Assembly: GCA_950097225.1 (NCBI GenBank)
Contig: CATNCE010000010.1
Location: 1-45,468, forward strand
Origin: an uncultured Bacilli bacterium
GTDB lineage: Bacteria; Bacillota_I; Bacilli_A; RF39; UBA660
Direction: 5' to 3'
Length of the DNA stretch: 45,468 bases
Positions within the stretch are counted from its first letter, which is position 1. Every line of letters starts with the position of its first letter. The position numbers and the translations under genes are program-made. Positions 16,833-33,489 of the stretch are shown piece after piece. The notes under the pieces are model-generated. The model saw only the letters and a list, made by a program, of their open reading frames with translations. It made no database searches and was not told where the DNA came from.

Positions 16833-17580
16833 AAAATTAAATGATTTAAATGAACCAACATTTTATGCCAGTTATCCAAATTATGAGACGCCTACTGGAA
16901 AAATTATAGGGCTCCCATTACTTGGAAAATCTTATCTAAGTGAAAAGCTAGTTAAAGATCATGCTGAAAGTATTCAAAAGTGTGTGCGGGAAGAGTTAAA
17001 CGATGAGTATGATGAAAAAGTCGTTGAGGCAACTATTAATGCGACCGCAAAACATTTAGGGATTGGTTGGTTTCCCGAAACAGCACCTAGTGTTGATCCT
17101 AAAATTTCTAGTGCATTTTTCGCCATTGATCGTGCTTATAATCGCTCTAAAATTGATGAATTACTTGCAAAAGGGAATGTAGTGCTTGATCGATATGTTT
17201 ATTCTGCTATGGCTCATCAGGGTGGTAAAATAGCTAAAACTAAAGAGCGTCGTGAATTTTACGAGTGGGAGCACAAACTAGAGTTTGAAATGTTTGGCTT
17301 GCCTGAGGACGATATTCGCATTTTCCTTCATATGCCAACTAAATATACTGAGCTTTTGAAAAAACGTCGAGTTGAAGAACTAGATGAGAACGAGAAAAAT
17401 TCCAAACATTTACTCGATGCTGAGAAGTCATTTTTAGAATTATCTGCATTATATGATTTTAAAAAAATTAAATGTATAAAAAAAGAATCAAATCCAATAT
17501 CTTTTGATGATATAAAAACACCAGAGGAGATTCATGAAGAAATTTGCCAAATCATTTTAGAATATTTAAATTTAGGATAA
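16756..17580 (+). CDS. dTMP kinase-like P-loop kinase
   Basis: Encodes 274 residues, longer than the ~210 of typical dTMP kinase. It has Walker A GTDCSGKET (Lys17), the NYETPTG region that resembles the thymidylate-binding part, and LDRYVYSAMAHQ, matching the DR motif of dTMP kinases. A lid-like RR pair (LLKKRRVEEL) is present. The reaction would be ATP + dTMP to dTDP. Start ATG 16756 is chosen for AGGAGG 6 bases upstream. Last gene of a likely salvage operon starting with tdk. A separate dTMP kinase may exist elsewhere, so this could be a specialised paralogue. Confidence 0.75.
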   Translation: MKKGKLIVIEGTDCSGKETQSKLLVKKLNDLNEPTFYASYPNYETPTGKIIGLPLLGKSYLSEKLVKDHAESIQKCVREELNDEYDEKVVEATINATAKHLGIGWFPETAPSVDPKISSAFFAIDRAYNRSKIDELLAKGNVVLDRYVYSAMAHQGGKIAKTKERREFYEWEHKLEFEMFGLPEDDIRIFLHMPTKYTELLKKRRVEELDENEKNSKHLLDAEKSFLELSALYDFKKIKCIKKESNPISFDDIKTPEEIHEEICQIILEYLNLG

Positions 17581-17606
17581 TCGTGTCAATATGATTATCC
17601 TTTTCT
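17574..17606 (+). terminator. Terminator of the dTMP operon
   Basis: AGGATAATC (17574-17582) pairs perfectly with GATTATCCT (17593-17601), then TTTTC. The stop codon is in the left arm. Confidence 0.8.
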
Positions 17607-17668
17607 TATGTCAAAAAAAATTCATAAAAACGCCTAAAAGAGAAAGGAACTATTGTAAAAAATAATAC

Positions 17669-17733
17669 TTTCATTTATAATTAAATTAGTGTATTATATT
17701 CTAATACGTTTGCAATTTATTTAAATTTGCAAA
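17669..17733 (+). promoter_or_regulatory. Putative promoter and operator before the type IV secretion operon
   Basis: A weak promoter (TTTCAT at 17669-17674, TATTAT at 17692-17697, 17-base spacer) is followed by an inverted repeat: TTTGCAA (17709-17715) and TTGCAAA (17727-17733), ending four bases before the ribosome site. It could be an operator for a dimeric repressor or a hairpin that controls translation. No regulator gene is next to it. Confidence 0.35.
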
Positions 17734-17750
17734 AATGAGGAGTGAGCTAT

Positions 17751-20120
17751 ATGATGTTACCAATGATGGCCGATTGGTTAAATAATGCTTTAACATTCAT
17801 ATTTATCGATTTAATCGATAGTGTTGCCTATGGTATTTTATCCATTGCTTATAATATTTTTTATGCTGTTGCTCAATTAGATATATTTGGTGGAGGACAA
17901 GCTGGAGTTCAACTATATGATGGAATAACTCAAAGACTATATATGGTGTTATCTGTTGTCATGGTCTTTGTTTTTGCCTATCATCTTATCATGATGATAA
18001 TTGATCCGGAAGGAAAGGGCAAAGGAGCAACATCAACTCTAGTCAAAGACACCATGTTTTCAATTATTCTTCTTATCGTTTTGCCATTGGTCTATAGATA
18101 TATGGCGGTATTTCAATATCATGTGCTCGAAAATAACACAATACCTGCTATAATTCTCGGGACAAATCCTACTGATAGTGATCATGATCCAGGGAAAAAT
18201 GTTGCTATGATGGTTTTAATATCTTTCTTTCATCCTAATGGAACGACTTATACGACTTTCTTTGATGAGTCTGGAAATGTTCGTGGAGACGCCGTTGATA
18301 GATGCCTTGGAGATACCGCTGCTGAGGATGGTGAGGAGCATACTAAAACCTGTGAAAAATATACCCAAGCTTTGATTAATTGGAAAGCCAATAATGGTTG
18401 GGTAACTGCCCTAACTTCAAAAGAGAAAAAATTGCGTCACTGGGTAGGAGATACTATGACGTATCAGTTTGTTATATCTACAATTGCCGCAATAGCAGTG
18501 GCATGGTGCTTCTTCATCTATTCGGTTGATATTGGAGTACGTGCAGTTAAACTAGGAGTTTTACAACTTATCTCACCAGTTCCTGTTATATTAAGAATTT
18601 TTCCATCAACGCGAAAGAGTTTTGAGACATGGTTAAATCATCTGAAGAAAACCTATTTGGAACTATTTATTCGTATAGCTGTTATTTTCTTTGCTTTAGA
18701 AATTGTTAAACTAGTTCCTGTATTTATTTCTATTATTTTCCAAGCTAGTGGTCAAAGTACAGCAGGAACGTTTACTAAATGCTTAGCAACTGCTATTTTA
18801 ATATTTGGTATCCTTCGTTTTGGACAAGATGCTCCATCCTTATTTAAAGAAATCTTCTCAACAGGGGGCAATCTGTTCGGTGGCATTAAGCTAAGCCCGC
18901 TAAATCCTAAATCGCGTATTACCGAGAACAAAGCAGCAATGTGGACAGCTGGAAAAGGCCTTGCTGCCTTCGGGGGAATGAAGAGTCAATTTGATCGCCA
19001 ATATAGAGCTAATAAAGCTGCAATGATGGATGTTACAGGGGATGCTCATACTTTGCGTAACATATTTAGTTCGGCACCATCGGCATTGCGTGGTGTAGTA
19101 ACTGGTTTACGTCAAAAGGATACAGCTTTGAAAGATATTGGTAAAAATGCTTATCGTCAAGCTGTAATTCGCGGAGCAGATGCAGCCAATACTCAATTTG
19201 AAAAAAGTGCTAAATTACAATACAAAGCTAAAAATCAAACTGAATATCTTTCCCACTTATCAGAAATTGGCCAAACTTCTGATCGTATTTCCGAAAGAGC
19301 TGTCAGTGGTCTTAAAAATAGAGCTGAATACATTAAAGACAACTTTAGTGATTACATAGATTATCGTAAAGGCATTAAAGAAGATCGCGAACACGAGAAT
19401 AAATTATACAAACAACGTATTAGTAGTGAATATGGACAAACCAATCAAACTGCTAACACATTATCAGCAATCATTGATCAATTTGATGCAATTAAAGAAC
19501 AAACTAAGAAAGCTACAGAGAGTCAAACTAACTTGATTAAAGATTTACAAAGTGTTGTTAACCAATCAACAGTTAAGACTGATCCTGGTGTATTCAATCG
19601 CCGAGTTCCTGTTTTCAGTGGGAATGAAGCTGATCGCCCAGCTTATGAACAGGCTAAAGCTCAATATGACTTAGAACTTGATATGTATAAACAAAATAAA
19701 GCAGCTTATGACAAATATATTTCTGCTAAAAATCAAATTGATGAGGCAAAACGTAAAAAAAACGAAATTATTGCTTCCGAATTGATGAAAAGTCAAGCTG
19801 GGAAAACATTTACTGCTAATGGCTTAGATAAAGTTCTTAGTGAACTTAAAAATCTACCATTTATGGCTGACCCTAACGATCCAACTAAGAATCTTGTTGA
19901 TACATATACTGCTCAAGTTAAAGAGTTACGCTCACGTGCTAAAGATGGTATATTAACAGCTGATGATTCTGAATTAATGACAAATATTTCAAAAGCATTG
20001 ACTAATGCTCGTGTATACTCAAATGCCCTTAGTAAACAAAATCAGGCAAGCACACAGGGATTCAATGGAACATCTGGCGGAGCTGGCTCTAGTGATGGAG
20101 GCAAAGGGGATAAAAAGTAA
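17751..20120 (+). CDS. VirB6/TrbL-like type IV secretion channel protein
   Basis: Encodes 789 residues. About six membrane segments lie at approximately 10-40, 60-84, 100-122, 240-262, 305-335 and 345-360, then a hydrophilic tail of about 420 residues rich in Lys, Gln, Ala and Asn with coiled-coil character, and a Gly/Ser-rich end. In Gram-positive conjugation systems the first polytopic protein before PrgI and VirB4 is the VirB6/TrbL/TcpH-like inner channel, and the layout fits. Start: GAGGAG lies 8 bases before ATG 17751, whereas a GTG at 17742 overlaps the site. Name depends on topology and gene order, not on a diagnostic motif. Confidence 0.65.
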   Translation: MMLPMMADWLNNALTFIFIDLIDSVAYGILSIAYNIFYAVAQLDIFGGGQAGVQLYDGITQRLYMVLSVVMVFVFAYHLIMMIIDPEGKGKGATSTLVKDTMFSIILLIVLPLVYRYMAVFQYHVLENNTIPAIILGTNPTDSDHDPGKNVAMMVLISFFHPNGTTYTTFFDESGNVRGDAVDRCLGDTAAEDGEEHTKTCEKYTQALINWKANNGWVTALTSKEKKLRHWVGDTMTYQFVISTIAAIAVAWCFFIYSVDIGVRAVKLGVLQLISPVPVILRIFPSTRKSFETWLNHLKKTYLELFIRIAVIFFALEIVKLVPVFISIIFQASGQSTAGTFTKCLATAILIFGILRFGQDAPSLFKEIFSTGGNLFGGIKLSPLNPKSRITENKAAMWTAGKGLAAFGGMKSQFDRQYRANKAAMMDVTGDAHTLRNIFSSAPSALRGVVTGLRQKDTALKDIGKNAYRQAVIRGADAANTQFEKSAKLQYKAKNQTEYLSHLSEIGQTSDRISERAVSGLKNRAEYIKDNFSDYIDYRKGIKEDREHENKLYKQRISSEYGQTNQTANTLSAIIDQFDAIKEQTKKATESQTNLIKDLQSVVNQSTVKTDPGVFNRRVPVFSGNEADRPAYEQAKAQYDLELDMYKQNKAAYDKYISAKNQIDEAKRKKNEIIASELMKSQAGKTFTANGLDKVLSELKNLPFMADPNDPTKNLVDTYTAQVKELRSRAKDGILTADDSELMTNISKALTNARVYSNALSKQNQASTQGFNGTSGGAGSSDGGKGDKK

Positions 20121-20143
20121 AAGAATAAAAAGGAGGAATAAAA

Positions 20144-20464
20144 ATGAATCAATTTTTGATTCCCGCCAATTCCAAACGCTCAATGTTAGTTTTTGGATTG
20201 TTTACACCAATTGACTTAATAATAGTTAGCATCGGAGGAACAATAACAGGATTATTAATGTTAATAATCAATGCAGAGACCTTACAGGATATCGGCATAA
20301 TACTTACCCCCGTGCTTATAGCAGGAGCTATGGTTGCTCCTGTACCAAATCATAGAAATGTTTGGAATTTGACTGCAAATATCTATAACTTCTATGCAAA
20401 AAGAAGAACTTATTATTGGAGAGGATGGTGTATGACCAATGGCGAAGAAACAACGCAAAAATGA
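20144..20464 (+). CDS. PrgI/VirB3-like small membrane protein
   Basis: Encodes 106 residues with two membrane segments (about 18-44 and 50-68), an N-terminal FLIPANSKR and a basic C-terminal portion containing RRTYYWRGW. PrgI/VirB3 proteins have this size and topology, always sit directly before VirB4, and link the ATPase to the membrane channel. AGGAGG precedes the ATG. It overlaps the next gene by 26 bases. Assignment is by position and topology; the sequence is divergent from well-known PrgI proteins. Confidence 0.6.
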   Translation: MNQFLIPANSKRSMLVFGLFTPIDLIIVSIGGTITGLLMLIINAETLQDIGIILTPVLIAGAMVAPVPNHRNVWNLTANIYNFYAKRRTYYWRGWCMTNGEETTQK

Positions 20465-21032
20465 AAACACTAGTAAACATACGGAAGATTGGTTACCAAT
20501 TAAATCTATTCAGGGCGGTTTAATTACTGTTCCTGGGGGCTTAATTGAAGGAGACCAAATCGTTACTGGTGTTCGAATTGAGCCTAAGAATATCTTTATT
20601 TCAGACATGGAAACTCAAAATCGTACCATTATGGCTATTCGTAATTTCTATAATACAATGGACTATGAATTTTGGCTTGTATGCTGCGATCGTCCTGTAG
20701 ATATTAATCTATATCGTTCAGAATTAGAGATAATGTATAATGAAGCTCCAACTCAACAAGCACGAAAATTAATTTTACAAGATCTAAATAAAATTGAAAA
20801 ATTTATTGGACCAGAAATTAACGCCGTTGATACCGAATTTTATCTCTTATTTAAAGATGATGCCAAAAACAAAGAGCGTATTCAAAAACGCATTCATAAT
20901 ATCATTGGTGGGTTTGCCTCTGCTGGTTTAAATGCAAGACAACTTACTGATGAAGACATCCGAGTTTTACTTGATAGTTTCTTTAATGATTCAAAAAGAA
21001 CAGAGTTTGGGACGGTGATGACTGATGTCTAA
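20439..21032 (+). CDS. VirB4 N-terminal part as a separate protein
   Basis: Encodes 197 residues without a membrane segment. It shows patterns of the VirB4/TraC N-terminal domain: a polar start, VTGVRIEPKNIF, an NFYNTMDYEFWLVCCDRPVDI strand-helix piece and DTEFYLLFKDDAKNKE. The ATPase part of VirB4 is in the next gene, overlapping by 8 bases. So the normally single ~800-residue VirB4 is split into two co-translated polypeptides that probably assemble together. A sequencing frameshift is possible, but the clear ATGTCTAA overlap and separate start argue for a true gene split. Confidence 0.6.
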   Translation: MAKKQRKNENTSKHTEDWLPIKSIQGGLITVPGGLIEGDQIVTGVRIEPKNIFISDMETQNRTIMAIRNFYNTMDYEFWLVCCDRPVDINLYRSELEIMYNEAPTQQARKLILQDLNKIEKFIGPEINAVDTEFYLLFKDDAKNKERIQKRIHNIIGGFASAGLNARQLTDEDIRVLLDSFFNDSKRTEFGTVMTDV

Positions 21033-22818
21033 AATGACACAAAAATCAGAAATAGCTCCAAAAGGGATGCATTTTAAAATAAACGAATTTATGATAAGCG
21101 ATAAATATGCCACCATCCTAACGGTTTTAGAGTATCCTAAAGCTATAGGTTATGGATTCTTAAGCAATATAACTAATATTCCTGGTGCTAAAGTAGTCGT
21201 AAAACATATTCCTATTGCATTTTCAACAATGACTAAAACAATTAATAAAGAAATAGCTGAGTTAAAAGAAGCATATGCAAAAGAACATGATCATACCTTA
21301 AAAGAAAGATTGCGTCTTGATTATGAATCGATGGAAGAATTTGTTAATATGTTAGCTGCAACACAATCTAAAATATTTGATTTCCAACTTCATATCATGA
21401 TAACTGCGGACACAAAAGATTCGCTTGATGCGCGCAAATTACAAGTAAAAAACTTTTTAACTTCACTTAACATGCGTGCCATTCCAATGATGTTTGAACA
21501 GGAAAAAGTTTTAAAAAGTATGTTGCCAATATTTCCTAAACAAGATGTTGAAGACCGTATTGGTATACCTATACCAGCTCCAACAATAGCTGCTATGTAT
21601 CCTTTTGTTTTTGATAGCATTAAGGATCCAGGCCTATCGACATTGTTTGGACTTGATAATTCGGGTGGAGTAGTTCTATTTAATCAATTTTTATATCAAA
21701 TTAGAAAAGAGCATAATCGTAACAATGCTAACATGATTATTTTAGGTACTTCCGGATCCGGAAAATCAACAGCCGCTAAACTTCAGTTGCGTAATCATAT
21801 TCGTAATGGCTATCAGATTGTTGCTATTGATCCTGAAGGAGAACTTGAACACATGACCGAAATCAATGGTGGAACCAATGTTGATTTAGGCAAAGGTGGA
21901 GCTTATGGTTTAGTCAATCCATTAGAAGTTATAGTTGATTCTGATGAAGAAGAATTAGCTCAAGGATTAGGTTACACTGTTTTGACTCGTGCCCTTCAAT
22001 CAATTAAGGCATTCATGAAATATTATAGTCCTTCAATTGAAGAAGATGTCTTAGCTATGTTTTCAGAAATAGTTCAAGAGACATATAAACGTTTTGGAAT
22101 AGATTTTAATACCAATTTTGCAGCTTTTAAACCGGAAAATTATCCAACATTCGATGATGTGTATACGACCATTAGAGGGAAACTCTTATCTATGCCTGAG
22201 GCCACTCGTGAACGCGACGTTATGGAACGCCTTGAATTGCGTGTTCGTCCTTTTGTAAACGAATTAAGATATTACTTTAATGGACATACAACGGTTAATA
22301 CTGATACAGATTTTATTGTATTTAACATAAAAGAAGTAATGAATAGTGATGCAAACATTCGTAATGCTTTATTCTTTAATATCTTAAAGTATGCTTGGGG
22401 TTTATGTCTTGATAAGAGCAAAAATACTGTAATGATGGTAGATGAGGCTCACATATTATTATCGGGAAGCAATGAATTAGGTGCTGAATACTTAGCTCAA
22501 ATGCAAAGAAGAGCAAGAAAGTACAACACTGGAACCATCATTATTACTCAACAACCAACTGACTTTGCTGATGAACGTGTTATCATGCATGGCAAAGCTA
22601 TATTTGATAACGCATCATATTACCTTGTCATGGGGCTTCGTAAACAAGCTGTTGAGGACTTATCTAAACTAATAGATTTAAATGATAGTGAAAAAGAGAA
22701 TATTAAACAATATACACAAGGACAGGCATTATTTATATGTGGATCTCGTCGCATGAATATTAATGTTGTCCTAACCCAAGATGAATTAGATTCATTTGGA
22801 ACCGGTGGCGGTTTATAG
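21025..22818 (+). CDS. virB4: VirB4 ATPase
   Basis: Encodes 597 residues. Walker A GTSGSGKS (residues 241-248, Lys247) and Walker B VMMVDEAH (Asp473, Glu474) define a VirB4/TraC-family ATPase. MQRRARKYNTG and TQQPTDFAD follow, both typical of VirB4. It powers assembly and substrate transport of type IV secretion systems at the inner face of the membrane. Residues 1-200 contain the rest of the N-terminal domain. The start overlaps the VirB4-N gene by 8 bases. This is the most certain gene of the secretion operon with virD4. Confidence 0.9.
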   Translation: MSKMTQKSEIAPKGMHFKINEFMISDKYATILTVLEYPKAIGYGFLSNITNIPGAKVVVKHIPIAFSTMTKTINKEIAELKEAYAKEHDHTLKERLRLDYESMEEFVNMLAATQSKIFDFQLHIMITADTKDSLDARKLQVKNFLTSLNMRAIPMMFEQEKVLKSMLPIFPKQDVEDRIGIPIPAPTIAAMYPFVFDSIKDPGLSTLFGLDNSGGVVLFNQFLYQIRKEHNRNNANMIILGTSGSGKSTAAKLQLRNHIRNGYQIVAIDPEGELEHMTEINGGTNVDLGKGGAYGLVNPLEVIVDSDEEELAQGLGYTVLTRALQSIKAFMKYYSPSIEEDVLAMFSEIVQETYKRFGIDFNTNFAAFKPENYPTFDDVYTTIRGKLLSMPEATRERDVMERLELRVRPFVNELRYYFNGHTTVNTDTDFIVFNIKEVMNSDANIRNALFFNILKYAWGLCLDKSKNTVMMVDEAHILLSGSNELGAEYLAQMQRRARKYNTGTIIITQQPTDFADERVIMHGKAIFDNASYYLVMGLRKQAVEDLSKLIDLNDSEKENIKQYTQGQALFICGSRRMNINVVLTQDELDSFGTGGGL

Positions 22819-22830
22819 TAGGTGCATTTT

Positions 22831-25161
22831 ATGAAAAAAAGAGCTAATTTAAAAAGAATATTGTTGCATAAAGGTATAAATACTTGTACCTTTTTTGCAA
22901 TGCTATTGTTTTTTAGCGTCTTTATTATTGGTAATGTATATGCTTATCAATTTAAATTTAGTGAATTTGATTGGGATACTTTTTATGCCGATAAAAAGGG
23001 ATTCTGGGATGATGCCTGTAAGAATAGTACTGATGAAGACTGTGATGAAGAAATCATTAAAACTCAAAAGCAATTTTATACTAAACTATATAAATCTTTA
23101 GCTGTCTATGAAAAAGATGGAGTTTTAATACCTGGAACTAAAGAATATGAGTACGCTGATGATATTATTTTAGAGACGGTTTTTTATGAAATGACGCCAT
23201 CTCAGTTTTCTGATACAGGAGAAGAGTATGTCGATACGTATGAGCCAAACTCTAACAAGGGTTTATACTCAATAGATCAAGAAGACCTTGAAAATCCTGA
23301 GATTAAAATAGATTATAACGATCCTGATGTTTTAACTTATTTTGAAGAAGAAACTGATACTATAAAGACTTTAGTACAAAATCTTATAGCTAATACCACA
23401 GATTGTTATGGAATATATGGGCCACCAACATACATAACAACTGAAAATGGTGAAAAATATGCTAAGTGCGATATTGGTTCTGTCATGAATTTACCAACGC
23501 GTGGAGAAAAGTGTGCAGTGCATATTCAAAATAATGAACTTGGCTTTTGGAAATATTATATTAGTAAAGTCCAACATGACGAGACTCTGCCTTGGTATAC
23601 AAGGGGAGCAGTAGTGTTATTTCTTGGACGTAATACGATTGATGAAAACTATGAAACTTGTAAGAGTTATAAATCTTCCTATCCAGAAGGAACGACATAT
23701 ATTTTTAACGATAATCCTAAATTAAGTACAGATCGCTTCTTTGATTTTTTAAGCTATAATAAATACTTTGATGGAAAGCCTCATTTACAAAGAAAGTTTA
23801 AAGAGACGATTTTAGATCCAGCTAAAGTTGATTGTATGACTAGTGATGTCTGTGATAATTCCTTAGAAGCATTAGGAGAGGATAAGTACGATTATTATGA
23901 AGGTGAAGCTATTGAAGTTCGTCGTTTGATAATCGAAGATATTATCAGTATTTTAGAAAATTACGGCTTTGATGTATTTTATGACCCTGTAAATGGTAAT
24001 TCATATAATGCAGTTGAAGGAGCTACAGCCACTCGTAAAAGTTTCTTTTGGCCGATTGGTAGTGATGAGACTGAAGAACGAAATGGCGTTATATATGCTG
24101 ATGGTGAGCCGGCTAGCACCGATATTGTATCTCCATTTGGAACTCGTGAGAACCCTATAACTGGGGCTGTTGAAGAACACTATGGAATTGATATAGCAGG
24201 GGTTGAGGGAAGTACTAATGTCATAGCCGTGTATCGTGGTGAAGTAGTGGGTGTCGTTAACTCTTGTAGTGTTGGAGATTACGAATGCAATGAGGGGTAT
24301 GGAAACATGGTCATCATTGCTCACCCTAATAATGACTACACAGTTTATGCTCAATTGGCAAGTATTGAACCTAGTATAACTATGGGATCTAGCGTTGATA
24401 AAGGCCAATTACTTGGGACCGTAGGAGCTACTGGAGCAACTAAAGAAGCAGTTTTACATTATGAACTTCGAAAAGGCGGTAATGATGTATTACATGCTGT
24501 AAATCCTGTAGAATCGACTGATCCTTCCAATCCGCGTCCTAAGGTCGCTGAAGGAGACTTCTCAGTTCATGAAACTTCTTTAACTCGTGAAGAATTCGCA
24601 TCGCTCTTGCGTGCTTACTGTGTATCAAATAAGTGTTCATCGACATTTATGAATGTTTTCGTTGCTAATGCTGAACAAGTATATGATGATTCCATTGCCA
24701 ATAATGTTAATCCTGAATTAGTAGTTATTCGTGGAGCTAAAGAGGGAATGAGTCCTGGTGGAAATACCCATAATTACTGGGGAATAGGTTGCGCAAATGG
24801 TGCTGGAGTTGGTGCTTGTTACCGCTATAGTTCCCTAAGCGATGGTATTCGTGGATTTGCTAATGTTGTTGCTAAATACGATACCGTAAGTGAAATGATG
24901 AGTAAATATGCTTATATTGGAGCCGTTTGGTATAATCCTGGAAGTTGGAGTTTGGGTGGATGTAAATATTACCCATATATAAATGAATACATGAGTCCAG
25001 GTCGTTCAAGCGAAGTAAGCTATATTTGTAATAATGGACCATCTTGTGGTAACAAAAGCGACCCAGGTTGTTCACCTACCACAGATGAAGATCAAATGGC
25101 TTATGCCATGTATAATGCCAGTGGAATGGTAAATATGCGTTACGTTGCATTTGGATTATAG
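22831..25161 (+). CDS. Exported wall protein: degenerate M23 domain plus glucosaminidase-like domain
   Basis: Encodes 776 residues. Signal/anchor helix at ~20-40 (FFAMLLFFSVFIIGNVYA). A long unknown region with Cys follows. At ~415-560 is an M23/LytM-like fold: zinc ligands His450 and Asp454 (HYGID) and His543 are present, but the two catalytic histidines are replaced by Gln508 (YAQLAS for YxHL) and Val541 (VLHYE for HLHxE). The C-terminal ~590-776 has a FlgJ/GH73-like stretch with RGAKEGM, NYWGIG and GIRGFANVV. It matches the VirB1/TcpG class of wall enzymes that open a path for the secretion channel. The start is ATG 22831; a GTG at 22822 lacks a site. Confidence 0.75.
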   Translation: MKKRANLKRILLHKGINTCTFFAMLLFFSVFIIGNVYAYQFKFSEFDWDTFYADKKGFWDDACKNSTDEDCDEEIIKTQKQFYTKLYKSLAVYEKDGVLIPGTKEYEYADDIILETVFYEMTPSQFSDTGEEYVDTYEPNSNKGLYSIDQEDLENPEIKIDYNDPDVLTYFEEETDTIKTLVQNLIANTTDCYGIYGPPTYITTENGEKYAKCDIGSVMNLPTRGEKCAVHIQNNELGFWKYYISKVQHDETLPWYTRGAVVLFLGRNTIDENYETCKSYKSSYPEGTTYIFNDNPKLSTDRFFDFLSYNKYFDGKPHLQRKFKETILDPAKVDCMTSDVCDNSLEALGEDKYDYYEGEAIEVRRLIIEDIISILENYGFDVFYDPVNGNSYNAVEGATATRKSFFWPIGSDETEERNGVIYADGEPASTDIVSPFGTRENPITGAVEEHYGIDIAGVEGSTNVIAVYRGEVVGVVNSCSVGDYECNEGYGNMVIIAHPNNDYTVYAQLASIEPSITMGSSVDKGQLLGTVGATGATKEAVLHYELRKGGNDVLHAVNPVESTDPSNPRPKVAEGDFSVHETSLTREEFASLLRAYCVSNKCSSTFMNVFVANAEQVYDDSIANNVNPELVVIRGAKEGMSPGGNTHNYWGIGCANGAGVGACYRYSSLSDGIRGFANVVAKYDTVSEMMSKYAYIGAVWYNPGSWSLGGCKYYPYINEYMSPGRSSEVSYICNNGPSCGNKSDPGCSPTTDEDQMAYAMYNASGMVNMRYVAFGL

Positions 25162-25173
25162 GAGGATAAAACA

Positions 25174-25713
25174 ATGATTAATGTCAGTGAATCGGAGAAA
25201 AAAGTTTTAAGTATTTGGGGTGGAGTAGCCATCATTATCTTTATAAGTGTTATTCTAATCGCTGTTTTTACTAAGGGAAATAATACAAAAGATGATATAG
25301 ATAGCATTACTGCTGGAAATACGAATCATTTACTTGATCGCAATCGTTATTACACAGTTGCATCCGTGATCTCTAAGTATTATGCATATCTTAATCAAAA
25401 AGATTATGCATCAGTTCTTAAAATTCTCGATTCTAACTACACTAAAGAAAAAAGCATATCAGAAAGTAATTTAACTACATACATAAAAACTTATGATGTA
25501 GTTACAACTTATAATCCTCACATCATGTGTGTAAAATCCGTTGACAAAGGCATATATACTATTCTTACTAATGGTGAAGAGATAAGTTCTAATACAGGAA
25601 AAATATATGGGACACCTTACTATCAAGTAATCCTAGATGGTAACACAACTCATTTTTCTCTAAAGCCAATAAGTGAACAAGAATATCAAGAGGGATGCCA
25701 TGAAAGAAATTAA
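25174..25713 (+). CDS. Single-span VirB8/TcpC-like protein 1
   Basis: Encodes 179 residues: short cytoplasmic start, a membrane helix at ~13-33, then an extracytoplasmic domain that begins with a helix (SVISKYYAYLNQKDYASVLKIL) and continues as strands, as in the NTF2-like fold of VirB8 and TcpC. Such proteins are assembly factors of type IV secretion channels. GGAGG precedes the ATG and the gene follows the wall enzyme by 12 bases. The next gene has the same layout. Family call is by topology, position and fold pattern only. Confidence 0.5.
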   Translation: MINVSESEKKVLSIWGGVAIIIFISVILIAVFTKGNNTKDDIDSITAGNTNHLLDRNRYYTVASVISKYYAYLNQKDYASVLKILDSNYTKEKSISESNLTTYIKTYDVVTTYNPHIMCVKSVDKGIYTILTNGEEISSNTGKIYGTPYYQVILDGNTTHFSLKPISEQEYQEGCHERN

Positions 25714-26200
25714 AAAGTTTATTGTTGAAAATAAGTTCTTAGTAATACTATTTGTCTTTATAATAGTCAGTTTTATAGGGATAGCTATTTATAATCACAC
25801 AAGAAATGAGCGTATTTATGAAACTCAAAAACCTGATGGTTCATCTTATGTAAAAAAAGAGTATGATGCTAATGAGTATCGCCCTGTAACGATCGAATTA
25901 ATTGATTTATTAAACGAATATTATAAGTTTTTTATAAAAAAACAGATAAATACTCCCGAAGAAGCATATGCTCTGTTATCGCAAACCAGTAAAGAGCGTT
26001 TTAATAATGATTATCAAGAATATTTAAAATATGTCAAAGATATAACAACTATAAATTCTATAAAAAATGAGATAAAAGAATATCGTATTAATTCCGATAA
26101 CAAACACATCTATGAAATAATCGATACTGAAGATAATAAATATGCAATTCATGAAAAAGCAGTATGGGACATTGAAATAAGTATAAATGGAAAAAGATAA
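25700..26200 (+). CDS. Single-span VirB8/TcpC-like protein 2
   Basis: Encodes 166 residues with a membrane helix at ~13-33, then a helical start (LIDLLNEYYKFFIKKQINT) and a probable NTF2-like domain. Its plan repeats that of the preceding gene, with which it overlaps by 14 bases; low identity suggests an old duplication or two parts of one trimer. I chose ATG 25700 because of AGAGGGA just before it; the upstream ATG at 25673 has no good site. Confidence 0.5.
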   Translation: MKEIKKFIVENKFLVILFVFIIVSFIGIAIYNHTRNERIYETQKPDGSSYVKKEYDANEYRPVTIELIDLLNEYYKFFIKKQINTPEEAYALLSQTSKERFNNDYQEYLKYVKDITTINSIKNEIKEYRINSDNKHIYEIIDTEDNKYAIHEKAVWDIEISINGKR

Positions 26201-26211
26201 GAGGTGATTTT

Positions 26212-27693
26212 ATGAATCAAGGTATTAAAGCCGCCGCATCAGCTGGAGTAAGCAAAGCTTCCTCTACTGGAGGAAGTGCTGTATCTGCAGGCGCTAGTAA
26301 ACTATCATCTGCTGGTGCTACTCAAGCTTTAGAAGGCGCAAGTAATCTCCCTAATAGCCCAGCTACTGGGACAGTTCTAAATAATACTAAAAAGAATACC
26401 TTGGCTAATAATAATAACCCCGCTGTATCTAATAATAACCCAGCAATATCTAACAATGTATCTCATGATATGCCAGCTTTAAAAGACGAAAAAAGTAACA
26501 ATATAAATGCCAATAATAATGTTAATAATACCGATTCCCTAAATGATGTTAGCAGGGAAAATTCCATTCCCGAAAATCAACAAGGCACTGGCGAAAATCA
26601 AAATATTTCAAATAACCAGAATGGTAGTGGAAACCAAATTCCTGAAGAACAAAAACCTAAAAAAGGGGATAAAGTCGATACAGGAAAGCAAATAGGTGAC
26701 AATGGTGAAATTGAAGATTCTAGTACTAAGAAAACTTTAAAAGCAGTCGGCAGAGGAGCAGCTGCATACTTTAGTGGCGGGCAATCTATTGGCGCTGATA
26801 AAGAAATAGCTAATATGAAGCCAGTAGATAAAACATTAGGAGTCGTATCTGATCAATTAGATAAAGTTCCAGGAGTAGAAAAAGTTACCAAGGAACTTGA
26901 TGATGCAGGTTTAGCAGACGGAGTTAATGATGCTTTAGATGTTGTAGGTAGTGCCAAAAATGGGGACATAAAAGGGACAGTAGAATCTGCCAAAAAATTA
27001 AAAAAAGATGGTAAAAAGTTAAAAAAATATACTGCTAAAAAATTACTCATTTTTGGCGTAATTCTATCGGTGCCAGTTTTCTTTATGGCTGTTTTAGTAA
27101 CTGTTGTCTTTGGACCTGTTCTTGGTGGATTTTTAGATGTTGTTGAAACTGCTGGTGATGGAATTGGTGAAGTTGCCGATAGTATTGGTGGTTTTATATT
27201 TGATGATGATGAAGAAGATATGACATCAGATATAGTCACTGAAGTTGAAGATTTTGAATCTCTAAGTGAGACTCGCCAAAAGATAGTAACAGCTGCAGCA
27301 ATGGCTGTGTCAGCTAAAATCCCATATAGTTATGGATCGCACCCTTATAACTCTGGTTTAGTAGGAATTCCAACTGATGGATTGGACTGTGCAGGATTTG
27401 TTCAGTGGGCTCTTTGGACGGGACTTGAATCCAACCCAGGGTATTTAACAACTAGTGTCATCAGTGGACGTATTGGTAATGATTTCATCCAAATTGAAAA
27501 GTCCGAATTAAAACCTGGTGATATTGGGCTAAAAAAACTTGGCTCATCGGCGAGTGATGAATATAATCATACGGGAATTTATGCTGGATCTGATCAATGG
27601 TTTCATGCTGCTGGTGGAAATACTAAACAAGTTGTCCGCAATAACTATACAGGATTTACCATTTTCTTAAGGTATAAAGGAGTGGATGGCTAA
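26212..27693 (+). CDS. Membrane-anchored NlpC/P60 peptidoglycan hydrolase
   Basis: Encodes 493 residues. Residues 1-180 are low-complexity (Ala/Ser/Gly then Asn-rich with repeated NNNPA). A membrane helix lies at ~277-306. The C-terminal ~355-493 is an NlpC/P60 domain: Cys393 (LDCAGF), His453 (YNHTGIY) and His465 (WFHAAGG), the third polar position of the triad. The family cleaves the peptide stem of peptidoglycan. Tn916 Orf14 and related conjugation hydrolases have the same enzyme class. It is the second wall enzyme in the operon and the one with intact catalytic residues. Its stop overlaps the next start by one base. Confidence 0.8.
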   Translation: MNQGIKAAASAGVSKASSTGGSAVSAGASKLSSAGATQALEGASNLPNSPATGTVLNNTKKNTLANNNNPAVSNNNPAISNNVSHDMPALKDEKSNNINANNNVNNTDSLNDVSRENSIPENQQGTGENQNISNNQNGSGNQIPEEQKPKKGDKVDTGKQIGDNGEIEDSSTKKTLKAVGRGAAAYFSGGQSIGADKEIANMKPVDKTLGVVSDQLDKVPGVEKVTKELDDAGLADGVNDALDVVGSAKNGDIKGTVESAKKLKKDGKKLKKYTAKKLLIFGVILSVPVFFMAVLVTVVFGPVLGGFLDVVETAGDGIGEVADSIGGFIFDDDEEDMTSDIVTEVEDFESLSETRQKIVTAAAMAVSAKIPYSYGSHPYNSGLVGIPTDGLDCAGFVQWALWTGLESNPGYLTTSVISGRIGNDFIQIEKSELKPGDIGLKKLGSSASDEYNHTGIYAGSDQWFHAAGGNTKQVVRNNYTGFTIFLRYKGVDG

Positions 27694-28415
27694 TGAAAAA
27701 AATATTTTTATTAATTATATCTGTTTTTGTCTTTATTCAACCAGTATATGCTGCCAGATATTACCAAAATGTTGCTATTAAAGCTAGTTTTTCTGAAGAA
27801 GTAAATCTTAGTGATATTAAAACTATTGAAGTCGTTTTCGAAGATGCAAGTGAATATTCTAAGAGTTATATCTTAAAAAAAGAGAATAATTTCGAATTAA
27901 ACCTTGAAAATATCCCCGTCGGTCCTTTTATTTTAAGATATAGTATTGTAAATGATGATGTAATAGGTTATTATAGTGCACAAGCAGAAGTGACTGAAAA
28001 TGAATTGCAAAATTCTCTAGATGTAATGGTTACTATTGCTCTACAAAATAATAAAAAAAATACTACTGATGATAATAAAATATCAAATCTAATTGATCAA
28101 ATTAATAAAAAAACTCCTAGTAACTCTCTAAACAATGGAGCTACTAATACTACAACAAGTTCTAATAATTCATCGGGAATTATCATTGACGATGAGGACA
28201 GCTCTGATGATGATAATGAAACTGATCATGATCCAAATTACAAGCCGACTAATCCCATCGCCAATAGTGGATCTGATGAAAAACGTCAAGAAGAGCGTGC
28301 AAAAAATCGTCAAAAGAGTAATTTAATAGGTACAATTATGTTTTCTATTATAGGTGTTTTTCTATTATTTGGTGTTATAATCACTAGTATAAAATTTATT
28401 AAAGCTAATAAATAA
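27693..28415 (+). CDS. Exported, C-terminally anchored protein of the secretion operon
   Basis: Encodes 240 residues: a signal peptide (1-20, ends VYA), a small beta-rich domain at ~22-115, a polar stretch rich in Asn, Ser and Asp (~118-205), and a C-terminal membrane helix at ~213-233 with a basic end. No enzyme motif. It may be a surface-exposed part of the channel or an adhesin that contacts the target. It is translationally coupled to the P60 hydrolase gene (TAATGA). Confidence 0.6.
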   Translation: MKKIFLLIISVFVFIQPVYAARYYQNVAIKASFSEEVNLSDIKTIEVVFEDASEYSKSYILKKENNFELNLENIPVGPFILRYSIVNDDVIGYYSAQAEVTENELQNSLDVMVTIALQNNKKNTTDDNKISNLIDQINKKTPSNSLNNGATNTTTSSNNSSGIIIDDEDSSDDDNETDHDPNYKPTNPIANSGSDEKRQEERAKNRQKSNLIGTIMFSIIGVFLLFGVIITSIKFIKANK

Positions 28416-28441
28416 ATATAGAAAATTATTAATAATTAGGT

Positions 28442-28447
28442 TATAAT
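28442..28447 (+). promoter_or_regulatory. Possible -10 box before virD4
   Basis: A TATAAT hexamer lies 24 bases before the virD4 start in a 56-base gap, the largest inside the operon. No good -35 was found 16-18 bases upstream, so a separate promoter is doubtful. Confidence 0.3.
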
Positions 28448-28471
28448 ATTAATGAAGAAGGAAGGGCTACT

Positions 28472-31180
28472 ATGAAAATAAAAGTTACAGGCAAAGATTT
28501 AGTAATTTTTAGCATTTTTTGCGTATTTTTATTATACTTTAGTGCCATAGCAGTTCTTAATGTTTTTACACTTATTAATGATGGCGAATTTTATGGCCTT
28601 GTCCCATTTGAGGCTTTTACAGGCAAGTATCTGTTTGCAACATTGCTTGTATTTTTTGCTGTGTTAATATCTGTTTTCTTCTCTGTTTCATCATCTATCT
28701 TTGAACGCAAAAGTGGATTTGGGTTGGAACTAGGTAATAAAGAAGAAAAGGGATACTCGCGTTGGCTAAAAGAAAAAGAAATGAAAAAGGCCTACAAGGT
28801 TTTTCGTGTGGGAGTTAAAGATGAAACAGCTAGTGCTGGAGGAATTGTTTTAATTAATGATGGAAAAAACATGTGGGTAGATGATTCTGAGTTCCATACA
28901 CTGGTAATCGGAGTTACTGGATCAGGTAAAACCAGTGCAGTAGTTGATCCATTAACTTATAGTTTAGTAAAACATGGTGAAAGTATGATATTTACCGATC
29001 CTAAAGGAGAGATCTACCGTGACCATGCCGAACTTTTAAAAGCTCGTGGCTATAAAATTATTGTTCTTAACTTTCGTGATCCCCAAATGGGAAATGCTTG
29101 GAATCCTTTAACTTTACCATATAAGTTATATAAAGAGGGTAAAACTGACAAAGCTAAAGAGCTCGTTGAGGATATCGCTAACAATATCGTTAAAGACAAA
29201 AAAGCTCAAGATCCATTCTGGCAAAACTCAGCAGCCGATTACTTTGCAGGTTGTGCTATTGGTTTACTAGAGGATGCTAAAGAAGAACAGGTAAACTTAA
29301 ACTCGATTAGTTTAATGACAACGGTCGGTGAAGAGAAATTCGGGGCTGGATCAACATACATAAAAGAGTATTTCACTATGAAAGGTGAGCAATCAAGCGC
29401 TTACACTTCAGCTAGTAACACGATTAACTCGCCAACTGAAACAAAAGGTGGAATTCTTTCAACATTCCGTCAAAAAATACGTATTTTTTCATCCCGTGAA
29501 AATTTATCAGAAATGCTTTCATATTCGGATTTCAATATAAGTGATATTGGTCGTGAGAAAACAGCAGTATTTATGATTATCCATGATGAAAAAACTACAT
29601 ACCATGCATTAGCAACTATTTTCATTAAGCAGTGTTATGAAAATTTAATCGCTGTTGCTCAAGAGAACGGTGGAAAATTACCAGTTAGAACTAACTTCAT
29701 TCTTGATGAGTTTGCCAACATGCCAGCTTTAAAAGACGTAACGACAATGGTAACTGCTGCCCGTTCAAGACAAATTCGCTTTACCTTCATCATCCAAAAC
29801 TTTGCTCAATTAAATGAAGTTTATGGTAAGGAAGACGCGGAAACCATTCGTTCTAACTGTGGTAACTTAATCTACATTTTAACTACTGAGCTTGCCGCTT
29901 TAGAAGAAATTTCCAAATTATGTGGAGAAGTGAAGAGCAAAAAAGATGATAAAACGGAGTCGCATCCACTAGTAACTATATCAGATTTACAGAAAATGAA
30001 GATGAATGAGGTTATCATCTTAAGAAATCGTCAACATCCGTTTAAAACACGCCTTGTTCAAGCTTATACAGTTGACTGGGGAACTTCTAGTTTTGGAAAA
30101 GCGGATCTATATAGTCGTGATAAAAAGGAAATTCAACTTTTTGATGTCAAAGAGTTTGTTCAAGTTCGTAAACGTAGTAAAATGGGCATTGATGAGAAAA
30201 ATCCAGGATCTAAACCATTAGGTGGATTAGGTGGAATGCCAGATTTTTCATCCCTTGCTGCAAATGGAATGGGGAGCATGCAGTCTCCTCCTAAGATTCC
30301 TACATTTGAAGAGTTTATGGCTGCTAGAAATGCCAATAAAGCTGCATCTCCAGCTCCGAAAAAGCCTAATATGCCATCTTTTGATGTTGATGACTTAGTT
30401 AAACGAATAGATGCTAAAATTGCTGAATTAGAAGCTCAAGAAAAAGCCGAAGAGGAAGCAAAGAAAAGTGGTACATCTCCAATATCTAATGGGCCAACTT
30501 CTAGTGATTTATTTGGAACTAACCCAACATTTAATCCGCCAAAAAGCGAACCTGTTGTTAACATGCTAGAAAGTGCATCAATTCAGGAAGTTAAAGCAGA
30601 ACCAGTTAATAATTTAGGTTTCAATCCTTTCAATAATGAAAATAAAACTACCGAAAACGCTTTTAAGGACAAAGATGTTATCGACAATCTAGAGGAGCCG
30701 ATAGCAACAACGCCAATTGAAGCACCTGTTATTAAGAGTGCTCCTGTTCCTGATCAAAATCCACCAGAACAGATTGAAAAGTTTTCCGATTTAATGAATC
30801 AAAGTGCACCAATGGAAGTTGAATATCGAGTAGATATTCCTAAGGATTACAGTGCTAATAAACCAACACCGCCGGTTTTTGAACCATTAGAAACTAAACC
30901 ATTAGGTGGTATAGTAGATCCGTTAACACAACCAACGCCAATCGAGGCTCCTGCTCCGTCGATTTCGGAAATATCAAAAGCGCCATTCTCAACTGTGGAA
31001 TCAAAACCAATAGAGCAAATTCAGCCGGCTCCAAATCCTAGTGTCTCTGCAAGTACGACATTCATTGACACTAAAGCTGGGGCGACAGTGCCTAATAATC
31101 AAAATATTGGAAATAATTATCAGGTTCCTAGTGGAGTGTCCGATGATGCTTTCTTTGATGATTTTTTTGAAGAAGAATAA
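28472..31180 (+). CDS. virD4: VirD4/TraG coupling ATPase with long C-terminal tail
   Basis: Encodes 902 residues. Two N-terminal membrane helices (~10-35 and ~50-72), Walker A GVTGSGKT (147-154), a TDPKGE motif, Walker B FILDEFAN (Asp412, Glu413) and TFIIQNFAQL identify a VirD4/TraG coupling protein, which selects substrates and passes them to the channel. The ATPase ends near 580; the last ~320 residues are a low-complexity Pro/Ala/Glu-rich tail with repeated short acidic-proline units and a strongly acidic end (DDAFFDDFFEEE). Tails like this bind substrate or adaptors in some systems. An IS element lies 16 bases after the stop. Confidence 0.92.
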   Translation: MKIKVTGKDLVIFSIFCVFLLYFSAIAVLNVFTLINDGEFYGLVPFEAFTGKYLFATLLVFFAVLISVFFSVSSSIFERKSGFGLELGNKEEKGYSRWLKEKEMKKAYKVFRVGVKDETASAGGIVLINDGKNMWVDDSEFHTLVIGVTGSGKTSAVVDPLTYSLVKHGESMIFTDPKGEIYRDHAELLKARGYKIIVLNFRDPQMGNAWNPLTLPYKLYKEGKTDKAKELVEDIANNIVKDKKAQDPFWQNSAADYFAGCAIGLLEDAKEEQVNLNSISLMTTVGEEKFGAGSTYIKEYFTMKGEQSSAYTSASNTINSPTETKGGILSTFRQKIRIFSSRENLSEMLSYSDFNISDIGREKTAVFMIIHDEKTTYHALATIFIKQCYENLIAVAQENGGKLPVRTNFILDEFANMPALKDVTTMVTAARSRQIRFTFIIQNFAQLNEVYGKEDAETIRSNCGNLIYILTTELAALEEISKLCGEVKSKKDDKTESHPLVTISDLQKMKMNEVIILRNRQHPFKTRLVQAYTVDWGTSSFGKADLYSRDKKEIQLFDVKEFVQVRKRSKMGIDEKNPGSKPLGGLGGMPDFSSLAANGMGSMQSPPKIPTFEEFMAARNANKAASPAPKKPNMPSFDVDDLVKRIDAKIAELEAQEKAEEEAKKSGTSPISNGPTSSDLFGTNPTFNPPKSEPVVNMLESASIQEVKAEPVNNLGFNPFNNENKTTENAFKDKDVIDNLEEPIATTPIEAPVIKSAPVPDQNPPEQIEKFSDLMNQSAPMEVEYRVDIPKDYSANKPTPPVFEPLETKPLGGIVDPLTQPTPIEAPAPSISEISKAPFSTVESKPIEQIQPAPNPSVSASTTFIDTKAGATVPNNQNIGNNYQVPSGVSDDAFFDDFFEEE

Positions 31181-31196
31181 AAGAATGAAAAGTATT
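31180..31196 (+). terminator. Left half of the virD4 terminator, split by an IS
   Basis: AAAGAATGAA (31180-31189) is the left arm of a hairpin; the matching right arm TTCATTCTTT with its T-run is at 32556-32568, after the IS. If the IS and one repeat copy are removed, the arms lie five bases apart and form a perfect 10-bp terminator stem. Confidence 0.75.
31188..31196 (+). repeat. Direct repeat at the left end of the IS (target duplication)
   Basis: AAAAGTATT occurs here and at 32549-32557, directly touching both IS ends. IS3-family elements normally duplicate 3-5 bases; if the ends extend two bases further out the duplication is AAGTA. Confidence 0.7.
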
Positions 31197-31222
31197 TGGA
31201 GTTGTAAGATAAAAGTGGACAC
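31197..31222 (+). repeat. Left terminal inverted repeat of the IS
   Basis: Starts TGGAGTTGTAAG and matches the complement of 32523-32548 at 25 of 26 positions. Confidence 0.85.
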
Positions 31223-31278
31223 ATAAAAAGATGTGAACCACTTTTTGTTTGTTATAATTAAATAAAGGAGTTGATACT

Positions 31279-31587
31279 ATGGCAAAAAAAGGACAAAAGT
31301 ATAAACAATGGACTGCTGAAGAAAAGTTAAAAATTATAGAACCAATAATAAATTTTGAAAAGAGTTCATCACAAGTGACAAAAGAAACAAATATAAACAA
31401 TGGTATGATTACTAGATGGATACATGAATATAATGTTTTAGGATTAGAAGGATTAAAGCCTAAAAAGAAACCAGGTAATCCATTAGCAAAATATAATTCC
31501 AAAAAGAATTTATCAAAAGAAGAACAATTAGAATATGAAAATATGAAATTAAGAATCGAGAATGAAATGTTAAAAAAGGATACCTAA
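31279..31587 (+). CDS. IS3-family OrfA (HTH, transposase N-terminal part)
   Basis: Encodes 102 residues: a helix-turn-helix (WTAEEKLKIIEPI then NINNGMITRWIHEY) and a C-terminal leucine-zipper-like helix (EEQLEYENMKLRIENEML). This is the DNA-binding half of IS3-family transposase. It ends after an A-run (A6G at 31572-31578), the type of slippery site where ribosomes shift -1 to enter orfB. AAAGGAG precedes the ATG. Confidence 0.88.
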   Translation: MAKKGQKYKQWTAEEKLKIIEPIINFEKSSSQVTKETNINNGMITRWIHEYNVLGLEGLKPKKKPGNPLAKYNSKKNLSKEEQLEYENMKLRIENEMLKKDT

Positions 31588-32512
31588 TGAAAGAAGATGG
31601 TACGTATGTAAAATTCATGAAGTAACACAATTAAAATATGAAATTATAGAAACATTAAGCAAAGAATATAGTATTAAATCATTATGTGAGATTATGAAAG
31701 TATCTCGATCAGGTTATTATAAATGGCTAGAAAATAAGAATAATTTAAATATTTATGAAATTAATCGAATGGACTTGAGCGAATTAATAAGAGATATTCA
31801 TAAAAGAAAACCGAGTTACGGATATCATAGAATTAGAAAAATAATACTAACAGAAACTGGCTGGATAGTTTCTGATAATTTAGTTCATAAAGTATGTAAA
31901 ATATTAAATATAAAATCAAAAGCAAAACATTATAAATATAAAAAGCCTGGTGAAGAATCAATTAAATACGAAAATATAATTCATGGAGATTGGAATACAT
32001 CAAGGCCTTTTGAAAAAGTTGTTTCAGATACAACTACATTTTGGTTTAAAAAGAAAAAATATGATTGGACTTTTTATTTAGATGTTTTTAATAACGAAAT
32101 AGTTGGTTATGATGTAAGAGATTCAATGCATGGCAATGGTATCCTAAACCACAGAGAAGCCTTAAAAAACATGTTAAATAACAAAATAAAAAGAGGATAC
32201 GAAAACCTTGAGACAATTGTTCATACAGATCAAGGGGCCGTTTATTCCTCAGTGTCATTTAACAATATATTTGATTCTTATAAAGTTACAAGATCTATGT
32301 CTAGAGCTGAAACCCCAACAGATAATCCAGTTATCGAATCTAAAAACGGCTGGATTAAGAAAGAAATGTATATTGATTTTGACATAAATAATTATAACAC
32401 AGTTCAAGAGTTTATTGATGATATTGTATGGGATAATAACAATTATCGTCCAAGTTATGCATTAAAATATAAAAACCCAATTGAGTATAGAACCCAACTA
32501 GGTTTTAATTAA
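31574..32512 (+). CDS. IS3-family OrfB, DDE transposase (5' frame disrupted)
   Basis: The catalytic part is clear: Asp (VVSDTTTF), Asp (VHTDQGAVY) and Glu (NPVIESKNGW), at 112, 179 and 215 counted from the internal ATG at 31694, plus the KVSRSGYYKW start typical of OrfB. The frame is open from 31574. This frame is +1 to OrfA, while IS3 elements use -1. In the -1 frame the reading stops at about 31625, and one missing base near 31619-31622 would rejoin them. So the OrfAB fusion may no longer be made. Confidence 0.8.
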   Translation, partial: KRIPNERRWYVCKIHEVTQLKYEIIETLSKEYSIKSLCEIMKVSRSGYYKWLENKNNLNIYEINRMDLSELIRDIHKRKPSYGYHRIRKIILTETGWIVSDNLVHKVCKILNIKSKAKHYKYKKPGEESIKYENIIHGDWNTSRPFEKVVSDTTTFWFKKKKYDWTFYLDVFNNEIVGYDVRDSMHGNGILNHREALKNMLNNKIKRGYENLETIVHTDQGAVYSSVSFNNIFDSYKVTRSMSRAETPTDNPVIESKNGWIKKEMYIDFDINNYNTVQEFIDDIVWDNNNYRPSYALKYKNPIEYRTQLGFN

Positions 32513-32522
32513 TTCTTTTTTA

Positions 32523-32548
32523 GTGTCTACTTTTATCTTACAACTCCA
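32523..32548 (-). repeat. Right terminal inverted repeat of the IS
   Basis: Ends CTTACAACTCCA; complement of the left repeat with one mismatch. Confidence 0.85.
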
Positions 32549-32557
32549 AAAAGTATT
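32549..32557 (+). repeat. Direct repeat at the right end of the IS
   Basis: AAAAGTATT, identical to 31188-31196. Confidence 0.7.
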
Positions 32558-32569
32558 CATTCTTTTTTT
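32556..32569 (+). terminator. Right half of the split virD4 terminator
   Basis: TTCATTCTTT (32556-32565) followed by more T. It is the complement of 31180-31189, now 1.36 kb away. It can no longer form a compact hairpin with it. Confidence 0.7.
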
Positions 32570-32817: not shown

Positions 32818-32824
32818 CCCCTTT
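32787..32824 (+). terminator. Hairpin overlapping the end of the rhodanese-like gene
   Basis: AAAGGGGT (32787-32794) pairs with ACCCCTTT (32817-32824). The T-run after it is poor, so it may be a weak terminator or an RNA end-protecting stem. Confidence 0.4.
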
Positions 32825-33480: not shown

Positions 33481-33489
33481 GAGAAGTGT

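Follow-up and report, generated by a model that had tools for sequence, protein, structure and literature searches.

A chromosomally fixed type IV secretion system of RF39-type Bacilli that is probably used together with a Tad pilus

We analysed a stretch of 45,468 nucleotides (hereafter the window), which corresponds to bases 1-45468 of contig C10 (CATNCE010000010.1) in the metagenome-assembled genome of an uncultured RF39-type Bacilli bacterium (GCA_950097225.1; 1.61 Mb, 92% complete, 58 contigs). Ten open reading frames, all on the + strand between 17742 and 31180 and all undisrupted, encode the body of a monoderm (MPF_FATA-like) type IV secretion system (T4SS), as judged from the list of open reading frames and Pfam matches. 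The block comprises VirB6, a VirB3/PrgI-like protein, VirB4 as two genes, two wall hydrolases, two VirB8-like proteins of the NTF2 fold, a surface protein and VirD4. A VirB4 ATPase thus stands in a single cluster with VirB3, VirB6, VirB8-like and wall hydrolase genes, as in monoderm (MPF_FATA-type) T4SSs. An earlier note, made from the sequence alone, had described a Gram-positive type IV channel of ten + strand genes here, and both the genes and their place were confirmed by the reading frames and Pfam.

The first gene (17742-20120) encodes a polytopic VirB6-like membrane protein that matches TrbL (PF04610, 29.4 bits, over the cut-off, 8e-7) and ends in a cytoplasmic part of about 400 residues. 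Its start is either GTG 17742 or ATG 17751, the latter with a better spaced GAGGAG, and its orthologues in relatives adjoin virB3/virB4 on the upstream side. The small VirB3/PrgI/TcpE-like membrane protein encoded next (20144-20464) has a weak TcpE match (0.036, under the cut-off); its place before VirB4 is kept in 64 loci, and the profile of its family also picks up the PrgI-like gene on the zrk4 plasmid described below. The N-terminal part of VirB4 has its own gene in a TrsD-like arrangement (20439-21032) and matches positions 91-281 of the NCBIfam VirB4 model NF045975 (1.8e-15). The C-terminal ATPase part (21025-22818) matches positions 297-891 of the same model (4.8e-103, under the model cut-off), AAA_10 (4.5e-14) and TraG (2e-11). 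Because the two genes match consecutive parts of one model, the split of VirB4, already proposed in the earlier note, is real. The Walker A motif is present in 80 of the 81 VirB4 orthologues.

Downstream of VirB4 lies the gene of a wall hydrolase with an M23 peptidase domain (22822-25161; PF01551, 71.9 bits, 5e-20) and a putative VirB1-type role, followed by the genes of the two VirB8-like proteins, a (25174-25713) and b (25673-26200, likely starting at ATG 25700). The assignment of the latter two, previously made from topology and gene order, is strengthened by AlphaFold models (pLDDT 90.9 and 87.5, respectively), in which each protein consists of one transmembrane helix and an NTF2-like domain, predicted to be extracellular in a. 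With VIA-align, the NTF2-like conjugation protein 3ub1 (3ub1_B) is the top solved structure for protein a (Z 10.1, root-mean-square deviation 2.9, 106 residues; 9.2 for the next structure), and for protein b it is tied with other NTF2 folds (Z 8.0). Foldseek returned no confident match for either model. The operon continues with a membrane-anchored NlpC/P60 wall hydrolase that has a long low-complexity N terminus (26212-27693; PF00877, 27 bits, over the cut-off, 5e-6) and, from sequence topology, a secreted or surface protein with a C-terminal transmembrane helix (27693-28415). Orthologues of this surface protein occur in 7 near loci; unrelated proteins of the c9/c20 type take the same place in other genera. 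The last gene (28472-31180) encodes the VirD4 coupling ATPase (PF02534, T4SS-DNA_transf, 197.6 bits, 5e-58), a member of the CD1115 family (NF045973, 308 bits against a cut-off of 250) with a Pro-rich tail of about 350 residues.

The T4SS is fixed on the chromosome, is not mobile, and is conserved across the order together with chromosomal neighbours. We examined a family sample of 117 genomes from 116 genera and an order sample of 146 genomes, every one of which comes from the same family; most of the genomes are fragmented, and counts of absence and adjacency are approximate. The core VirB4 occurs as a single copy in 97 of the 117 family genomes (a tally of 99 includes two genomes that hold only the VirB4 of an integrative and conjugative element, ICE) and in 126/146 order genomes. 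On the single-contig chromosome of genome G199 (1.26 Mb), it is located at 698 kb. All eight congeners searched carry an orthologue at 83-93% identity and other genera of the family at about 63-77%, and no VirB4 at family-level identity was found in 23 genomes of other families. Among public genome contigs, the order VirB6-VirB3-VirB4n-VirB4c is repeated in 80 loci; VirD4 lies within reach downstream in 48 of them, and rhodanese, DedA or RmuC is also present in 37 of these 48. A locus of the same kind (L115) comes from a genome of Candidatus Coprovivens, which has been assigned to RF39 (PMC12788396); named relatives of this kind suggest that the family to which the window belongs is RF39, probably UBA660. 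Locus L207 (genome G132, contig C18) carries a second full-length VirB4, 40% identical, between VirB6 and VirB3.

Pairwise divergence of VirB4 follows that of RmuC (r=0.91, p=0.001, 22 loci), with VirB4 being the more conserved of the two, and the corresponding correlation for VirD4 is 0.81. The location is therefore not the variable, horizontally acquired one of an ICE: neighbours are conserved and divergence is congruent with RmuC. In the VirB4 tree, the core sequences form their own clade (support 99/96), apart from the ICE VirB4 of the same genomes and from plasmid VirB4; the deep branches to TrsE, CD1110 and ICE forms are weak. The proposal of the earlier note that this is a fixed machine rather than a mobile element is supported by the order-wide conservation, the chromosomal neighbours and the lack of boundary repeats. 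Synteny was borne out across the order on the 3' side, whereas the neighbourhood on the tmk side (infC-L35-L20-tdk-pgm-CYTH-tmk) is common to close relatives only.

Four relaxase families were searched across the 117 genomes, with counts of 28 for PF03432, 61 for PF01076, 2 for PF02486 and 0 for PF03389; with MOBF, MOBC and MOBM outside the search, contigs that carry the core VirB4 show no relaxase of these families closer to it than 50 kb. The nearest relaxases that share a contig with it are 55-115 kb off (G080, G068, G016 and G141). None of the four families was found anywhere in 38 of the 97 carriers, and whether a genome has the T4SS does not depend on whether it has a relaxase (Fisher p=0.63). 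The earlier note had seen no relaxase, which holds for the surroundings of the locus but not for the genome: a single one was detected on contig C29, where it is accompanied by its own VirB4 (20% identical to the core VirB4) and its own VirD4. This finding leaves the fixed machine standing. The C29 locus (L141) is a separate conjugative element with a MOBP relaxase, VirD4, VirB4 and a VirB2-like small protein.

The machine is larger than the ten-gene block: pilin and Tad genes, overlooked in the earlier note, also exist in the genome. In many other genera, one to eight VirB2-like pilin genes lie directly upstream of virB6, preceded by a Tad-type pilus operon with the genes of CpaB and CpaF and, judging by order and topology, of a pair of TadB/TadC-type membrane proteins, small pilins of the Flp kind, TadE-like proteins and one TadZ-like protein. 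CpaF (PF00437) and CpaB (PF16976) were identified by Pfam matches; the match of the VirB2-like pilins to PF18895 is over the cut-off in locus L097 and weaker in others. VirB2-like arrays of 1-8 genes stand near virB4 in 48 of the 59 loci counted. Where at least 6.5 kb upstream of VirB4 is available (n=58), TadZ was found in 32 loci and a short VirB2-like gene within reach in 45. The order CpaB-CpaF-TadB-TadC-(pilin)-tadE-TadZ-VirB2-VirB6-(VirB3)-VirB4-...-VirD4 is whole in three genomes (G060, G078, G149) and can be followed in two more (G144, G009) until the stretch or contig ends. Its extended form, CpaB-CpaF-TadB-TadC-flp-tadE-TadZ-VirB2-VirB6-VirB3-VirB4n-VirB4c-...-VirD4-rhod-dedA-rmuC, recurs whole or in part in many genera. 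Profiles of TadZ and the VirB2-like pilin matched in 23/23 genomes of the family and in 0/14 outside it, and a TadZ search in plasmids gave no match.

The window genome holds these genes in two other places, with CpaB, CpaF, TadB and TadC on contig C12 (about 2.7-7.7 kb) and pilins, TadE-like and TadZ-like proteins and one VirB2-like pilin on contig C7 (about 33-38 kb). Since the pilin module still adjoins virB6 in the congeners G002 and G003, its separation from virB6 in the window genome, by rearrangement, is probably recent. Tad/pilin genes and the T4SS body are likewise apart, with both kept, in the congeners G001 and G006, and in G199 they are 108 kb from each other. Such persistence after separation argues that both halves matter to the cell, together or separately. 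We do not claim that VirB2-like pilins are unique to the RF39 machine: the small protein of the ICE in the window genome has weak TrbC/VirB2 matches, and CagC-family proteins occur on pGO1-type plasmids. Of the 157 proteins positive with the pilin profile (cluster c0, L036-L115), 56 have at least 250 residues, with the pilin domain nearly always in the C-terminal half; from their sequences, these are predicted to be VirB2-like domains fused to secreted ectodomains. A surface protein family of about 400-560 residues (MKRRS..LGFA.V.STLVINGN) has several copies, among them L140:7854-9095 (G000, contig C7) and 41693-44633 of the window, and one copy lies inside the pilin/Tad module of the window genome.

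We favour, with a probability of about 0.7, the interpretation that RF39-type Bacilli have domesticated a T4SS, now fixed on the chromosome and vertically inherited, whose body is encoded by the block and which they use for contact with partner cells in concert with VirB2-like pilins and a Tad pilus. The two modules are read as one contact machine because the order Tad-VirB2-VirB6-VirD4 recurs, no relaxase is linked, and both modules are kept when they are apart. The Tad pilus, with its CpaF motor, TadB/C platform and small pilins, would draw the partner cell close, and a short fibre or channel might be built from the VirB2-like pilins on a platform of VirB6, VirB3 and VirB4. Judging by their families, a passage through the cell wall would be opened by the M23 and NlpC/P60 enzymes and lined by the VirB8-like proteins with their NTF2 fold. 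As is known for these families, VirD4 would recruit substrates, and VirB4, forming a membrane pump with VirB3 and VirB6, would power the transfer. The most likely use in these auxotrophic bacteria is, in our view, to exchange macromolecules with the cell next to them, delivery of effector-type proteins being slightly more probable than DNA import.

Several observations weigh against this interpretation. No candidate substrate, effector or partner was found on inspection of the locus. TadB, TadC, TadZ, tadE and the Flp-type pilin were assigned by order and topology, without a Pfam match. The co-occurrence of Tad and T4SS (29/30 vs 12/29) partly reflects that the two are neighbours in fragmented assemblies, and RmuC is a marker linked to the locus, not an independent one. 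Two genomes (G113, G124) have a Tad operon without VirB2-like or T4SS genes beside it, and Tad can therefore serve alone. About 15% of the genomes are without the T4SS. Some of these absences are contig breaks, as in G009, which we dropped from the T4SS-less genomes since its VirB3 at the contig end marks an assembly gap; the loss looks real in G113 and G124 and in G066, which is 98% complete and lacks both the T4SS and TadZ. Such losses indicate that the machine is not indispensable. In addition, relaxases of the tested families are encoded elsewhere in 59 of the 97 carriers and might use the channel.

Among the other explanations, the one that survives best is that of two independent machines, a T4SS body and a Tad pilus, with a gene neighbourhood in common. 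The two genomes with Tad alone and the distance between the modules in the window's genus and in G199 speak for it, whereas adjacency is kept across many genera, both modules are retained after separation in several genomes, and a plasmid of a distant Mycoplasmatota bacterium carries the same combination; we regard it as possible but doubtful. Somewhat less probable, and the main rival as to function, is a machine for DNA import or exchange like archaeal Ced/Ups, where cells are brought together by a type IV pilus and chromosomal DNA passes between relatives through a VirB2/VirB4-like channel, no relaxase being involved. In both cases a type IV filament goes with VirB2-like and VirB4-like parts (PMC9905601, PMC12102498), and such a use would suit RF39, which is without de novo nucleic acid synthesis (PMC13155120). 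Against it, the RF39 locus keeps a canonical VirD4 coupling ATPase, which normally serves export.

The T4SS could also be a chromosomally maintained conjugation channel that serves, in trans, mobilisable elements with relaxases encoded elsewhere in the genome. The conjugative CD1115 family of its VirD4 and the 59 carriers with a relaxase would fit such a role, but the other 38 carriers, the independence of T4SS and relaxases, and the relaxase of the window genome, which travels with its own VirB4 and VirD4, do not; it is also unlikely that the locus would stay vertically fixed for long if only such elements gained from it, and we judge this explanation improbable. A decaying or recently inserted ICE that lost its relaxase, suggested by homology to the ATPases of mycoplasma and Firmicutes ICEs and by an IS3-type element at the 3' edge, is refuted by the ten open genes, the conserved Walker A motif, the orthologues with conserved neighbours in most genera of the order and the lack of flanking repeats, and it retains hardly any probability. 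A contact machine that combines T4SS body and Tad pilus remains our preferred interpretation.

A putative intrinsic terminator on the + strand (17574-17601), with a stem of 12 pairs and a T run, is of a kind about as frequent in shuffled sequence; it may separate the tmk housekeeping operon from the secretion operon. It is followed by a putative sigma-70-like promoter of virB6 (17653-17681, +; TTGTAA-17-TATAAT, 10/12 consensus matches), chance matches to which are common in AT-rich sequence. We found no direct repeats bounding the block, the best pair being 36 nt at 72% within coding sequence. The 3' edge holds no ICE integrase, as the earlier note had stated, but an insertion sequence of the IS3 type (31197-32548, +; orfA 31279-31587, orfB 31694-32512), whose transposase has an integrase-core (rve) domain and HTH domains, adjoins the operon directly. 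Its terminal inverted repeats match at 34/40 positions. The element sits in the loop of the terminator hairpin of the T4SS operon, the left half of which lies at 31181-31196 (+) and the right half at 32549-32567, and the 9-bp AAAAGTATT, long for the IS3 family, flanks both ends. When the halves are rejoined without the element, the restored hairpin has a folding energy of -9.8 kcal/mol (z -3.1). The IS3-type element is a later insertion, outside the secretion machine. The chromosomal neighbours of the block are the tmk operon on the 5' side and, beyond the insertion sequence as the immediate 3' neighbour, genes of a rhodanese-like protein, a DedA/VTT protein (PF09335) and RmuC (32605-34569, +), whose order after VirD4 is repeated in other genera. 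Near the 5' end of the window (1438-2904) is a gene whose product, a surface protein, carries thioester (TED) and SpaA-type domains and is likely a covalent adhesin.

Comparison with known systems places the RF39 machine among several partial relatives. The pGO1-type T4SS (TrsA-TrsK) of staphylococcal and lactobacillar plasmids has the same split VirB4 (TrsD and a TrsE-type protein; PMC12102498), a wall hydrolase and a CD1115-family VirD4. It differs in that its VirB4 is 24-26% identical, it belongs to conjugative plasmids with MOBQ relaxases, and no Tad operon is annotated in the stretches compared. The best plasmid match to VirB4 among those listed (28% identity) is on the zrk4 plasmid of a Mycoplasmatota bacterium from a cold seep (CP074574.1). 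This plasmid combines VirB6, a PrgI-like VirB3, a gene in the place of VirB4-N, VirB4 and VirD4 with a CpaB-AAA ATPase-CpaF-TadB-TadC-pilin set, has no annotated relaxase and is classed as 'non-mobilizable' by MOB-suite. Unlike the RF39 locus, it is plasmid-borne, its modules are reversed (T4SS then Tad), VirD4 is in a separate place, and its VirB4 falls outside the RF39 clade. As this plasmid carries both modules, the association of Tad pilus and T4SS is not confined to one order, and it may have begun on a plasmid. A protein of 1650 residues is encoded downstream on zrk4, and one of 576 residues without a Pfam match beside VirD4 (L233/L235). The VirB4 family of mycoplasma ICEs (Mbov_0397 family, NF045975) is the best curated model for both RF39 halves, but RF39 VirB4 scores 345 of 590 bits, far under the family cut-off, and the mycoplasma forms belong to mobile ICEs. 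The archaeal Ced/Ups pair (PMC9905601, PMC11868833) resembles the RF39 machine in its type IV filament and VirB2/VirB4-like channel without a relaxase; it is archaeal and has other parts, and RF39 VirB4 matches the CedD ATPase model only distantly. The 89K T4SS of S. suis is another Gram-positive system with a reported non-DNA role, effector secretion (PMC4897608, PMC12857230); it is on a pathogenicity island, and no Tad operon or VirB2 array is mentioned for it in the parts of these sources consulted.

The closest parallel is the relaxase-free T4SS of Patescibacteria (Saccharibacteria), which together with type IV pili is described as essential for growth on the host bacterium (PMC12102498, PMC12857230). 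According to a recent review, nearly all Gram-positive T4SSs move DNA only, with Patescibacteria as the exception, having VirB2-like pilins and a survival role (PMC12857230). Their system has the same monoderm MPF_FATA-like VirB3, TrsD-like VirB4-N, VirB4, VirB6 and wall hydrolases, and is likewise chromosomal and lineage-wide, without a linked relaxase and with arrays of divergent VirB2-like pilins, in organisms with a type IV pilus and small auxotrophic genomes. RF39 bacteria, which are uncultured, have reduced genomes with many auxotrophies and are without fatty-acid and several other biosynthetic pathways (PMC6784871); we found no paper on RF39 with T4SS or Tad in the open-access literature. 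Two features of the Patescibacteria type, a lineage-wide chromosomal T4SS without a linked relaxase and VirB2-like arrays near virB4, were both found in RF39. In contrast to Patescibacteria, where VirD4 is rarely near virB4, the RF39 locus includes VirD4; it also has two VirB8-fold proteins, a pilus of the Tad type with its operon adjacent in many genera, and a host lineage within Bacillota. By the shared features, the RF39 machine closely parallels the epibiosis-essential T4SS. We tentatively suggest, with less confidence than for the machine itself, that an entire order of uncultured Bacillota of the gut has, in the fixed composite of Tad pilus and T4SS, a dedicated non-conjugative device for physical contact and macromolecule exchange with partner cells, which either arose convergently with the epibiosis machine of Patescibacteria or is related to it; RF39 bacteria might then depend on contact with other gut cells, as their partners or parasites. 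If true, this would give a concrete reason to seek partner cells when culturing these common gut bacteria, and RF39 would provide a second monoderm case, after Patescibacteria, of a T4SS that is relaxase-free, vertically inherited across the lineage and accompanied by VirB2-like arrays, here with a linked Tad pilus.

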